Assembly: GCA_021850605.1 (NCBI GenBank)
Contig: JAJZLQ010000036.1
Coordinates: 1-63,163 of the forward strand
DNA length: 63,163 bases
Source of the DNA: Actinomycetes bacterium
Lineage (GTDB): Bacteria; Actinomycetota; Acidimicrobiia; Acidimicrobiales; Acidimicrobiaceae
Direction: 5' to 3'
The notes beneath the pieces were generated by a model that did not search any database, had not been told where the DNA came from, and was given only the letters and a program-made list of their open reading frames with translations. Every line of letters starts with the position of its first letter. Position 1 is the stretch's first letter. The position numbers and the translations under genes were made by a program. Below are positions 33,140 through 37,929 of this stretch, piece by piece.

Positions 33140-33395
33140 TCAGCCTCTCCAGATCCGGCGGACACGCCTTGAAACCGCGCCGCGTCTGCATAGAGATTAG
33201 CCCTCGCGGAACAAATTTGGAGTAGGTCTCAGCAGCTACTCAGGCAATCCGGAGCATGGACCCGGAAGGAGAGCCGCGGCGTGGCGCGCCCTGGGCCCTC
33301 GGGCCACGTACCGCTGGTTGATATCCGATCGCGGGGGCTTGGTGCCGCCTGCACCTCCCCGGCGACGTGCCTGCGCCAGCCGGGTTGAAGGAGAG
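33140..33395. other. Intergenic region, mannosyltransferase to tRNA-Tyr
   Basis: About 255 bases with no supported gene. Both flanking genes run leftward, so it should hold the mannosyltransferase promoter; no convincing -35/-10 pair is visible. A small ORF inside is the antisense extension of the tRNA. Confidence 0.5.
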
Positions 33396-33477
33396 TGGGC
33401 CGGGTAGGATTCGAACCTACGTAGGCTGAGCCGGCAGATTTACAGTCTGCTCCCTTTGGCCGCTCGGGCACCGACCC
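33396..33477 (-). tRNA. trnY: tRNA-Tyr (anticodon GTA)
   Basis: An 82-base class II tRNA with a long variable arm. The acceptor GGGTCGG pairs with CCGGCCC (one T-G), discriminator A, no encoded CCA. The anticodon stem GCAGA/TCTGC with loop CTGTAAA gives GTA. T-loop TTCGAAT. It is divergent from yajQ, 27 bases apart. Confidence 0.93.
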
Positions 33478-33504
33478 TTGGTGTGCGGAATATCCTATAT
33501 CAGC

Positions 33505-33993
33505 GTGCCTACTTTCGATGTCGTCTCAGAGGTCAACCTCCAGGAAGTTCGGAACGCCGTTGACCAGGCAAACCGCGAAGCTTCGACCCGCTTCGACTTC
33601 AAGGACACCGACTCCAAGATCGAGTTCACCGATAAGGAGCTCCACCTCTCCTCAGCCTCGGAGGACCGGCTGCGGGCCCTGGTGTTGGTCCTGGAAGAGA
33701 AGCTGGTCAAGCGAGGTGTATCACTCAAGTCGCTCGAGCGCGGCCAGGTGGTCGAAGGCTCGCGCGGCTCGGCCCGCCAGACCATCAAGCTCGTTGCCGG
33801 CATCTCCACCGAGAAGGGCAAGGCGATCAACAAGTTGATCAAGGAGCTGAACCTGAAGGGTGTCACCGGGTCGATCCAGGGCGACGCTGTGCGGGTCTCG
33901 GGCAAGAAGCGCGACGACCTGCAGACAGCGATCCAGAAGCTCAAAGAAGCCGACTTCGGCATCCCTCTTCAGTTCAACAACTTCCGGGACTGA
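33505..33993 (+). CDS. YajQ-family nucleotide (cyclic-di-GMP)-binding protein
   Basis: 162 residues from the GTG at 33505 (PTFDVVSEVNLQEVRNAVDQ), the family length. Conserved segments are TRFDFKDTDSKIEFTDKELH, AGISTEKGKAINKLIKEL and VRVSGKKRDDLQTAIQKLK, forming the two ferredoxin-like folds. Xanthomonas and Pseudomonas YajQ bind cyclic-di-GMP; in other bacteria tRNA, nucleotide or phage-factor roles are proposed. A TATCCT at 33491-33496 would place transcription start at or next to the GTG, so the mRNA may be leaderless. Confidence 0.93.
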   Translation: MPTFDVVSEVNLQEVRNAVDQANREASTRFDFKDTDSKIEFTDKELHLSSASEDRLRALVLVLEEKLVKRGVSLKSLERGQVVEGSRGSARQTIKLVAGISTEKGKAINKLIKELNLKGVTGSIQGDAVRVSGKKRDDLQTAIQKLKEADFGIPLQFNNFRD

Positions 33994-34304: not shown

Positions 34305-34871
34305 TCAGTAATAGCCGGAGTGCATGTACACGCAAGGAATCCCTTCGGCCTGGAACATCTCCACGTTACGCACGTCGTCCTCGAAGGCGAGTACGGGGCT
34401 GAGGCCCGCCTGGCGCATCCTCGCGGTCTCACGTGCCTTGAAGTGTCGCGCAGCCGCGTAGTCACCGTAGTCACGCATTATCAGCAGATCCCAGCGCAGC
34501 TGGTAACGATTCAGCCAGCCGATGGTCAGCTCCATCACCGAAACGGGCCGCCCGGTCAGCAGAACTACCGGGTAGCGACGGTCGATCACCTGGAGCAGCC
34601 TGGCAGCCTCCTCGATAAGCGGATCCTCGTGGCATTTCTCAAAGAAGGCATCCCAATCCGGGCGCACGCCTTTCAGGAAATGCTGCCGTGCGGAAGCGTC
34701 GGCAAGGACGCCGTCGATGTCAAAGATCACCACTTCGCCCCGTGGTACCCCGCCCTCACGGCTCGCCCAGTTGGAGTGGGAAGCTCTCAGCCTTTCAGCC
34801 AATTCGCCCTTCTCTCGCCACCACGAGCCCCGCCCGGGGCCCCGGCCTTCGATTAGCTTATAGGTGGGCAT
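34305..34871 (-). CDS. HAD-superfamily phosphatase, PNKP 3'-phosphatase-like
   Basis: A cytosolic HAD hydrolase: motif I FDIDGVLAD (Asp nucleophile plus acid/base), motif II LLTGRP and motif IV FEDDVRNVEMF. The order and the segment LLIMRDYGDYAAARHFK resemble the 3'-phosphatase half of T4 polynucleotide kinase-phosphatase and its stand-alone relatives. No kinase half is present. The start is uncertain: ATG at 34871 gives 188 residues; GTG at 34733 begins right at VVIFDIDG and would leave room for divergent promoters. The substrate is unknown. Confidence 0.8.
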   Translation of the reverse strand: MPTYKLIEGRGPGRGSWWREKGELAERLRASHSNWASREGGVPRGEVVIFDIDGVLADASARQHFLKGVRPDWDAFFEKCHEDPLIEEAARLLQVIDRRYPVVLLTGRPVSVMELTIGWLNRYQLRWDLLIMRDYGDYAAARHFKARETARMRQAGLSPVLAFEDDVRNVEMFQAEGIPCVYMHSGYY

Positions 34872-34908: not shown

Positions 34909-37900
34909 ATGGTAGAGCCGGGTCCGGCCACAAACGGGCGGATGGTGCCGGTGGATCCTGTCAACTTCGACGACCAGCCGGCCTGCCCCCACGAGGCATC
35001 GATCGAAGTACCCATAGGCCACCGGGTCATCGTGGCGTCGGAGCTCTTCATCGGCCGCTTCTCGGGAGCGCCGCGACCGGAGCTCGAGCGCTTTGCCGCC
35101 TATTTGCGCACCATCGAGGGACCCGGTTTGTTGATTGTGGCCGGCAACCTGCTGGACCTGCTCTACCCACGCAGGCGGTCTTCCATATCCGACCTTGTCA
35201 CGGAGCACAAGTACTTCTTCGACGAGCTAAGGCACCTGGTGGAGGAACGGGGTTTCCACCTTTGCGTGATACCCGGGAGCCGCGATGCAGCTCTGGCATG
35301 GGACAGCGAGCTACGGCGCAGCGTGGCCGAAGCCACCGGCGCTCGCTTCGCCCTGAAGTTCCGTCTGCGAGTCACGACAACTACCGGCCATCGGGATGTC
35401 ATGGTCACCTGCGGCCGCGAGCTGGATGAGCGCAGCGCGCCGATCGACCCATACTCACCCTCCGACACCCCCTTCGTCCACCACCTGGTGGGCGAGATAA
35501 TCCCGAACATCGCCTCCAAGGCGCCATGGCTCGAGGGAATCGACCTGGCAATCGACTCCGGAGCCATATCCCGCTTCGTCGGCTCGCGCCTCTTTTACCG
35601 CCGCGCTATGCGCTACCTTCCACTGGTGATCGTGCCGCTGCTGGCCGCGTTCCTGGTGAAGCTGCCATTCATCCTGGCCTTGCCCCCGCTCTCCCGGCTG
35701 AGGGCGGGCGTCTTCCACGTCGCCCCCCTGTTGCAGATAGCGGGGATAGCGACGGTGGTCGACGCGCTCGTAATCCTGATACTGGCCACTTGGGTGGCGC
35801 GACGCATCTACGCCGGCCTGGTCGAGGACTTGAAGCCGAGCGTCGGGGGTGCGGCAGGCATCAACATTGCCGCGCGGGTGGCAGCCATGGAGGAGTTGGA
35901 AAACGGCTGCGTAGGGGTGATCACCGGCAACAGCCCGCTCGCTGAGCTCGCCGACATGGCCAACGGCTTCTTCGCCGTCTGCGGTTCCATCAGCAGCGGC
36001 TACCGGGAGAAGGTCGCACGGCTGGGACTGCCCAGCGTCTTCGTTCCCGTACGCCAGTGCACCTGGGTCGAGCTGCAGCCCGGAGCAAAGATGCGGGTGC
36101 GCCTCTACTCGCACAGCGAGGAACGCTCGGCCGAAACCCTCGTCGAGCGAGCCTTCACGCTAGGAACCATCGATCGTACGCATGGTTTGCGCATCCTCGC
36201 CTCCTACCCGGACGGGCAGGATTTCTCCGAGCCCGACGACCGGCCCGGGCGCTACCAGAGAGCAAGACGTGTGGCCGCCGCGGCGGTGTTCATGGTTGGC
36301 TTCATCGACCTGGTCTCCGCGCTCACACCACCTTTGCGCGGACGCTTGGTCTTCCTGCAGGAATTCCTGCCCATCTCCGTGAGCGAGACGGCCAACGCAC
36401 TCACGGCCATGGGGGCGGTCGGACTGCTCGCACTCGCAAGCGGCCTCCGGCGTGGCCAGCGCATCGCCTACCTTCTCACCGTGGTGCTAACCGGAGTCTC
36501 GGTGGCAACGAACCTGCTCAAGGGTGGCGATATCGAAGAGTCAACACTGCTCGTAATCGTACTCATCTACCTGATCGCCAATCGAACCGCCTTCACTGCG
36601 CCCACCGACCGCACTCCCTTTGCGCGCGGCCTGCTGCGCATTCCCATTGGATGGGTGCTGATCCTCATCGCCGGGACCATCACCCTCCAGCTCGACCTGC
36701 TCATCTTTGAGCGCAACAGCGGCGTGAGCCTGGGCACGAGCTTCATGGCGGTCCTGGAGCGGATGGTCGGCATAAGCAGCATCACACTTCCCTCGGTCAT
36801 CGACGACTTCCTCACCCCGGCACTGGGGTACTCCTCGCTATTGCTCTTCGCGCTGCTGATCTTCCGAGCATTCCGCCCGGTTGTGGAGGCGGGAATCGGC
36901 AGGATCCACCTACCCGGCCGGACGAGCCTCTCCCCGGCAGAGGTGGTCAGGCGCTACTCCTCCTCAACCCTGGACTACTTCGCTCTCCGTGATGACAAGA
37001 GCTTCTACGTCGCCTACGACACCGTCATCGCCTATGCGGTCATCGGCAGTGTCGCGCTGGTCTCGCCGGACCCAATCGGCCCGGAGGCCACTGCGCGCCA
37101 GGCCTGGAAGGAGTTCATGAACTTCGCCTCCTCCAAGGGCTGGGCGTTGAGCGTGCTGGGCGCGGGCGAGAAGTGGCTCCCGGTGTATGCGGCCGACGGC
37201 CTGCACTCCATGTACATCGGGGACGAGGCGGTGGTGGAGGTGGCCGGCTTCCGGCTGGACGGCAAGCGCAACAAGAGCCTGCGCCAGGCCGTGAATCGTA
37301 TGCGCAACTACGGCTACAGCATCCAGTTTCTGGATCCCACCACGGTGGAAGAGCCGCTGCGCTCCGAGCTGCTCGAGGTGCTGGGCCGCAGCCGACGCGG
37401 TGGCGTGGAGCGCGGCTTTTCCATGACGCTCGGCCGCTTTCTCGACCCTAAGGACACCGGGTTGATGCTGACGGTCTGCTACGGGCCCGACGGCCACGTG
37501 GTGGGCTTTTGCCAGTGGGTACCGGCCCCGGGCATCAAAGGCTTCTCGCTGGACCTCATGCGCCGCGACATGGGGGATCACCCCAACGGCATGACGGACC
37601 TAATGGTGGTTGCAACCATCGACCACCTTCGCGAGACCGGCTACTCCGCGCTCAGCCTCAACTTTGCGACCATGCGCGCAGTGATCGCCGGCGAGGCTGA
37701 GGAGAACGTACAGGCCCGGCTCGAGCGCTGGTTCCTCCGCCGGCTCTCCGACACCATGCAGATCGAGAGCCTGTGGCGCTTCAACTCCAAGTTCAATCCG
37801 ACCTGGCTTCCCCGCTACCTGGTCTTCGACACGCCGGAGAACCTGGCGCAGGTCGCCATGGCCATCGCCCGCGCCGAGTCATTCTGGGAGCTTCCGGTGA

Positions 37901-37929
37901 TCGGCAAGTTCCTGGTGCCAAAGAGCTGA
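34909..37929 (+). CDS. Degenerate metallophosphoesterase fused to MprF/LysX-type phosphatidylglycerol aminoacyltransferase
   Basis: About 1006 residues from this ATG (the frame is open from a GTG at 34864; numbering here is from that GTG). Residues ~52-400 follow a calcineurin-type phosphoesterase pattern, but the metal ligands are altered: VIVASELFIG at 55-64 (normally SDLHLG), VAGNLLD at 92-98 (normally AGDxxD), IPGSRD at 136-141 (normally GNHD) and ITGNSP at 353-358 (normally GHTH). Membrane segments lie within this part (~251-312) and at ~470-670. Residues ~690-1015 are an MprF-type DUF2156 synthase domain (RYSSSTLDYFALRDDKSFYV, GFRLDGKRNKSLRQAVNRM). It probably makes aminoacyl-lipids; the N-part is likely a pseudo-enzyme. 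Confidence 0.8.
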   Translation: MVEPGPATNGRMVPVDPVNFDDQPACPHEASIEVPIGHRVIVASELFIGRFSGAPRPELERFAAYLRTIEGPGLLIVAGNLLDLLYPRRRSSISDLVTEHKYFFDELRHLVEERGFHLCVIPGSRDAALAWDSELRRSVAEATGARFALKFRLRVTTTTGHRDVMVTCGRELDERSAPIDPYSPSDTPFVHHLVGEIIPNIASKAPWLEGIDLAIDSGAISRFVGSRLFYRRAMRYLPLVIVPLLAAFLVKLPFILALPPLSRLRAGVFHVAPLLQIAGIATVVDALVILILATWVARRIYAGLVEDLKPSVGGAAGINIAARVAAMEELENGCVGVITGNSPLAELADMANGFFAVCGSISSGYREKVARLGLPSVFVPVRQCTWVELQPGAKMRVRLYSHSEERSAETLVERAFTLGTIDRTHGLRILASYPDGQDFSEPDDRPGRYQRARRVAAAAVFMVGFIDLVSALTPPLRGRLVFLQEFLPISVSETANALTAMGAVGLLALASGLRRGQRIAYLLTVVLTGVSVATNLLKGGDIEESTLLVIVLIYLIANRTAFTAPTDRTPFARGLLRIPIGWVLILIAGTITLQLDLLIFERNSGVSLGTSFMAVLERMVGISSITLPSVIDDFLTPALGYSSLLLFALLIFRAFRPVVEAGIGRIHLPGRTSLSPAEVVRRYSSSTLDYFALRDDKSFYVAYDTVIAYAVIGSVALVSPDPIGPEATARQAWKEFMNFASSKGWALSVLGAGEKWLPVYAADGLHSMYIGDEAVVEVAGFRLDGKRNKSLRQAVNRMRNYGYSIQFLDPTTVEEPLRSELLEVLGRSRRGGVERGFSMTLGRFLDPKDTGLMLTVCYGPDGHVVGFCQWVPAPGIKGFSLDLMRRDMGDHPNGMTDLMVVATIDHLRETGYSALSLNFATMRAVIAGEAEENVQARLERWFLRRLSDTMQIESLWRFNSKFNPTWLPRYLVFDTPENLAQVAMAIARAESFWELPVIGKFLVPKS

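Follow-up and report, generated by a model that had tools for sequence, protein, structure and literature searches.

A 63,163-nucleotide contig from an Acidimicrobiaceae actinomycete, analysed over its whole length (the window), encodes a protein that joins a degenerate phosphoesterase region to a membrane-bound probable synthase of aminoacylated lipids. The question raised by this locus is what a phosphoesterase domain stripped of its metal ligands does on such an enzyme, and how it came to be there. By sequence comparison with copies from other genomes (given L numbers below), the fusion is real and clade-wide. The protein is arranged as follows (MPE, metallophosphoesterase; TM, transmembrane).

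34909..37929, + strand: whole gene, pseudo-phosphoesterase/aminoacyl-lipid synthase fusion; open frame, 1006 aa from ATG
34996..35604, + strand: pseudo-MPE part a, residues 30-232, motifs I-IV degenerate; profile A1, relatives L031 and L094-L098
35605..35826, + strand: TM hairpin within the MPE region, residues 233-306 (TM 239-257 and 274-298); hydropathy
35827..36183, + strand: pseudo-MPE part b, residues 307-425, motif V GHTH changed to GNSP; ligand alignment
36271..36864, + strand: six-TM block, residues 455-652, counterpart of the second (synthase-side) TM subdomain of MprF; hydropathy, phmmer to MprF structures
36949..37824, + strand: LPG_synthase_C double-GNAT domain, residues 681-972, motifs intact; PF09924, E 3e-64

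Both MPE pieces and the GNAT domain are predicted, in our own reading of hydropathy and positive-inside loops (RRGQR and PTDRTPFARG), to lie on the cytosolic side. Hydrophobic stretches are present at the hairpin position in unfused intact relatives as well. An in-frame GTG at 34864 offers an alternative start that would add 15 residues. The first 29 residues (34909-34995) show a dN/dS near 1 against both L003 and L004, which leaves the true start or the function of this tail unsure.

We first consider the synthase half, which the original prediction had assigned to the MprF/LysX type. PF09924 covers residues 681-972 with 217 bits against a cut-off of 27.5, and the assignment stands; so does the predicted lack of a fused lysyl-tRNA synthetase (LysRS), since no tRNA synthetase domain follows the GNAT domain and the protein stops at residue 1006. 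The synthase motifs DPIGP, LRQAVNR, GFSMTLGR, SLDLMRR and W-F/Y-N-KF/Y-P-W-PRY are all present. From residue 447 onward the nearest NCBIfam model is LysX (NF002821; 277 bits vs an equivalog cut-off of 742), and NCBIfam MprF scores 237 vs a cut-off of 600. PF16995, the LysX TM model, matches residues 450-587 weakly and below its cut-off (23.8 bits vs 26.8, E 4e-5), and PF03706 was not found in the protein by Pfam search. The PDB matches are MprF-type proteins, the best of which span query residues 454-974 (9goe, 7f47 and 6lvf). The window fusion is the one PF09924 protein in its genome, which encodes three PF03706 proteins elsewhere and one other PF00149 protein; a missing gene is possible, as the assembly is 91% complete.

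Residues 1-430 gave no direct match to Pfam or NCBIfam. The phosphoesterase ancestry claimed for this part was instead established through relatives, its own sequence matching no model. In the search for relatives, the unfused L031 (genome G026) aligned with query residues 10-454 at 30% identity (E 8.5e-33). This protein carries the motifs SDLHL, GDCFE, GNHD, EHGH and GHTH and passes the cut-offs of both PF00149 and PF12850; L096, and also L098, pass PF00149 and PF09924 within a single protein. The calcineurin identity of the N-part thus follows from homology to relatives above the PF00149/PF12850 cut-offs, and its resemblance to MPEs is, at the sequence level, far beyond chance. AlphaFold, run on an alignment of 4 sequences that was too shallow, yielded pLDDT values of 45 (N-domain) and 31 (full protein). 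Foldseek with this low-pLDDT N-domain model returned nothing at E <= 0.001 (E > 0.04). A PDB profile search with the intact relatives gave weak matches only, with LpxH at the top (5b49, E 0.0037, positions 276-333).

The eight canonical metal-ligand positions were read off a sequence alignment of 99 N-domains. In the window protein they fall at the following sites.

35041..35049, + strand: former motif I ligands E45 (was D) and F47 (was H); N-domain alignment
35146..35148, + strand: former motif II ligand N80 (was D); N-domain alignment
35278..35283, + strand: former motif III ligands S124 and R125 (were N and H); N-domain alignment
35410..35412, + strand: former motif IV ligand C168 (was H); N-domain alignment
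35929..35937, + strand: former motif V ligands N341 and P343 (were H and H); N-domain alignment

The four motifs originally named as altered, S44-E-L-F47 (SELFIG), A78-G-N80-LLD, P122-G-S124-R125-D and T339-G-N341-S-P343, are all there in that form. A fifth, which had been overlooked, is gone as well: the HG motif, EHGH in intact relatives, reads TCGR and contains C168. The aligned ligand row of the protein is E F N S R C N P, that is, 0/8 canonical ligands, and by this count the N-part is predicted to be catalytically dead, as had been proposed. Across the sample, 8/8 ligands were found in all 16 unfused copies and in 5 of the 80 fused ones (L095, L096, L097, L098 and L104, the last counted as fused because the start of its synthase runs to the contig end). 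One further fused copy has 7/8 (L094), three have 4-5 and 71 have 0-3, so that 74/80 fused copies keep five or fewer. These counts describe one sample of related, non-independent copies and leave out L016, L053 and L087, which are truncated at contig ends or miss alignment columns. Of five fused copies added later and judged by motif pattern alone, L139 and L140 appear intact and L145-L147 degenerate.

Matches to the N-part extend well beyond the window. A seven-row N-part profile matches 86 of 298 genomes of the order and 70 of 396 phylum genomes, the latter with a mixture of frames of roughly 950-1300 aa and 450-500 aa; the weak matches in either search may include other phosphoesterases. 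A class-wide search with an intact-copy profile found matches in other orders too. The close relatives that carry a name are metagenome-assembled genomes labelled 'Actinomycetes bacterium'. Two loci differ in their frames: in L057 the fusion is split into frames of 646 and 333 aa by a frameshift or assembly error, and L107 (G068:C28) has a 2221-aa open frame around the fusion, far longer than the others.

An N-domain tree was built by a quick method with the motif columns removed and was rooted on the unfused copies. In this tree 69 fused degenerate rows form one clade (SH-aLRT 96) and the intact fused copies branch at its base; L100/L105, L099 and L056 represent separate ligand losses. In the synthase tree the intact copies fall into a single set of 10 rows, which also contains rows of intermediate ligand number, rows that have lost the ligands and rows without an N-domain. 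Because one large clade supplies most rows, the contrast between 6/80 and 16/16 does not amount to a set of independent events. An explanation by chance loss confined to fused copies, scored as a count of such events, was rejected, since by the trees few separate losses suffice. Fused homologues with intact metal ligands, which the original prediction would have taken as a sign of local decay, do exist (8/8 in L095-L098 and L104; L139 and L140 by motif). The local-decay conclusion does not follow, because the intact fusions are rare and basal and the loss is common to the 69-row clade. Local decay or sequencing damage is also ruled out by the recurrence of an open frame with degenerate motifs in the genus and family of the window.

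The dead domain is under purifying selection. Nei-Gojobori comparison of the window with L003 (86% identical) gave dN/dS values of 0.147 for MPE part a, 0.186 for the hairpin, 0.130 for MPE part b, 0.087 for the TM block, 0.056 for the GNAT domain and 1.3 for the first 29 residues; with dS near 0.9 these values are approximate. L004 gave similar values where it covers the gene. Conservation in the pseudo clade is focused on scaffold positions and on the S226-R227-x-x-Y230-R231 stretch before the hairpin. G79, G123, D126, S226, R227, Y230, P243, G359, E388 and L399 are near-invariant, with the ligand positions variable. In part b, most fused copies, intact or dead, have W-x-E-L where most unfused ones have T-H-x-x-V, and W-x-E-L may mark a contact with the synthase.

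The two halves are separable in evolution, as indicated by copies with an altered synthase, without a synthase or without a detected N-domain. In L097 (1300-4377, - strand) and L098 (2821-5796, - strand) the phosphoesterase is intact, TLDQVRR stands for SLDLMRR, and RPWRVDEMFEPEW or HPWEPDEAYEPAW takes the place of SLWRFNxKFxPxW. Pseudo copies that cover the synthase motif positions keep the main motifs with few changes. L031 retains the phosphoesterase without a synthase, and its neighbours match those of L096; this unfused intact copy (L031/L101, G026) is nested beside the fused L096 in the N-tree, and it looks as if its synthase half was lost. In L030 (G034:C43) the synthase frame is 613 aa long; the contig extends roughly 790 bases upstream of it, and no N-domain was detected there. 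If this locus is read correctly, the N-module would have been dispensable at least once.

Two neighbouring genes recur beside the fusion.

34305..34790, - strand: HAD phosphatase (PF25109), divergent neighbour, no functional link to the fusion implied; Pfam, locus comparison
33478..33993, + strand: YajQ (DUF520), upstream neighbour, context only; Pfam, locus comparison

They lie upstream in the same order in many pseudo-clade loci, and the pair was not found beside the intact fusions examined. In L024-L028, no more than about 40 bases separate YajQ from the N-domain match. A tRNA-Tyr gene (33395-33478, - strand) abuts the TTG listed as the start of the YajQ frame, its end falling at the base before that start; the true start of YajQ is therefore probably further in. 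Directly upstream of the phosphoesterase gene, two relatives belonging to one family, L096 (5648-6691, - strand) and L101 (11200-12369, - strand), carry an alpha/beta hydrolase (BD-FAE). In Agrobacterium a lysyl-PG hydrolase gene shares an operon with lpiA, the gene of the synthase (PMC13197417), and the role of BD-FAE may be similar by analogy.

A history can be fitted to the computed architecture, descent, ligand loss, clade-wide sharing, selection and intact synthase motifs. We give an even chance to the reading that a two-activity lipid-enzyme ancestor became an aminoacyl-lipid synthase whose retained pseudo-phosphoesterase anchors or positions the synthase. In the ancestor, a calcineurin-like phosphoesterase anchored in the membrane and facing the cytosol would have been joined to a tRNA-dependent aminoacyl-lipid synthase, both activities presumably working on one lipid pool and the phosphoesterase acting on a membrane lipid. 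The synthase would take its amino acid from aminoacyl-tRNA and load it onto a glycerolipid, either phosphatidylglycerol or diacylglycerol; in most descendants this reaction alone would be left. To judge from anatomy only, the dead half and its hairpin would be a non-catalytic module in the place of the MprF flippase subdomain, holding the GNAT domain at the membrane or orienting it there. In RtMprF the catalytic domain is positioned by the membrane part (PMC8131360).

The rare relatives with both halves intact suggest that the fusion may originally have been a lipid enzyme of two steps. The reciprocal decay seen in two copies with a phosphoesterase and altered synthase motifs, and in one without a synthase, points to separable activities. 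A fuller version is doubtful in our estimate: the intact fusions would still be two-step lipid enzymes, the phosphoesterase half making the acceptor and the synthase half aminoacylating it, and across the window clade the first enzyme would have turned into a structural or regulatory component of the second. Acceptor routes might run, for example, from phosphatidic acid to diacylglycerol, or to phosphatidylglycerol from its phosphate.

The retention of the domain under purifying selection would also be expected of a ligand sensor, in which, along the lines of the original prediction, a nucleotide or lipid phosphate in the old cleft switches the synthase allosterically; the conservation of former-site neighbours in the pseudo clade (D126 91%, G79 100%) fits such a role. 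The ligand positions, however, vary freely across that clade, so that no shared new binding site is visible, and conservation is highest elsewhere, in a cluster next to the hairpin (S226-R231) and in part b. Sequence conservation provided no evidence for a specific nucleotide or lipid-phosphate ligand, and we consider a sensor possible but unlikely. The domain could alternatively be a vestige, eroding slowly in all lineages, of which the hairpin and a folding role alone matter. Erosion is indeed graded, from 5 ligands to 0, with deletions in some rows (L023, L088 and L091) and no N-domain detected in L030, and the N-part dN/dS is about 2-3 times the GNAT value. Nevertheless, full-length domains persist across dozens of genera, and a dN/dS of 0.13-0.15 is far under neutrality and under the value of the N-terminal tail; we regard a mere vestige as improbable.

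Two further explanations would keep the phosphoesterase step. An N-part that still hydrolyses or transfers by means of other residues or another metal would account for its retention under selection, and some fused relatives keep a subset of the ligands (e.g., DHDDRHHL in L099). The 0/8 count in the window protein, together with the lack of any alternative histidine cluster conserved across the clade, makes this very unlikely. It is also conceivable that the neighbouring divergent HAD phosphatase took over the lost step, the pathway staying unchanged and only the site of the reaction moving. The HAD gene, with a DxD-type start (FDIDGVLAD), is divergently upstream in many pseudo loci; next to intact fusions for which 4.2-4.9 kb was available on the upstream side, no such gene was found. 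Several pseudo loci, however, have no HAD gene nearby, and PF25109 is a family of polynucleotide, not lipid, phosphatases. As the intact fusions are few and belong to different lineages, the pattern can be plain shared synteny, and we hold such a takeover to be highly improbable.

With this fusion the MprF/LysX family gains an architecture with a phosphoesterase in the place of the flippase. The open-access literature searched yielded no publication linking a metallophosphoesterase to DUF2156, phosphatidylglycerol lysyltransferase or MprF/LysX, an absence that is weak evidence given this coverage. The copies form a natural series on one scaffold, in which the phosphoesterase passes from intact to dead beside an intact partner enzyme. 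Two questions become testable with this series: the lipid substrate of the intact phosphoesterase, which would hint at the acceptor of the synthase, and the contribution of a bacterial pseudo-phosphoesterase to the domain it is fused to. Aminoacylated lipids influence resistance to acid and cationic peptides, so it is of interest which amino acid and which lipid these bacteria use.

Among known systems, the calcineurin-like and LpxH-like MPEs (PF00149/PF12850) share a homologous scaffold with the window protein, which differs from them in having 0/8 ligands and a domain split by a TM hairpin; the likeness to LpxH is one weak profile match and implies no LpxH membership. Vps29, the metal-binding-deficient MPE fold of retromer, is a precedent for an MPE fold serving as a scaffold. 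It appeared among the weak PDB profile matches, as a resemblance only, and unlike the window protein it is eukaryotic, soluble and without a transferase fusion. On the synthase side, the flippase-less Clostridium perfringens MprF1, Corynebacterium AlaDAGS and Mtb LysX2 are, like the window protein, synthases with TM segments. Excerpts of their published descriptions report that CpMprF1 has six TM helices but no flippase domain (PMC11980842), that LysX2 has four predicted TM segments (PMC8974105), and that AlaDAGS is an actinobacterial MprF homologue, diacylglycerol being aminoacylated by actinobacterial LysX and AlaDAGS (PMC10580965); these excerpts mention no phosphoesterase domain. LysX of Mycobacterium and Corynebacterium, a lysyl-DAG or lysyl-PG synthase, has the TM block and GNAT domain in common with the window protein but carries a C-terminal LysRS, whereas the window protein has none and bears the extra N-terminal pseudo-MPE. 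MprF itself (PF03706 + PF09924) aligns end to end with the window protein over its six-TM synthase subdomain and double GNAT domain, and the flippase subdomain that precedes these in MprF is replaced by a pseudo-MPE with its TM hairpin.
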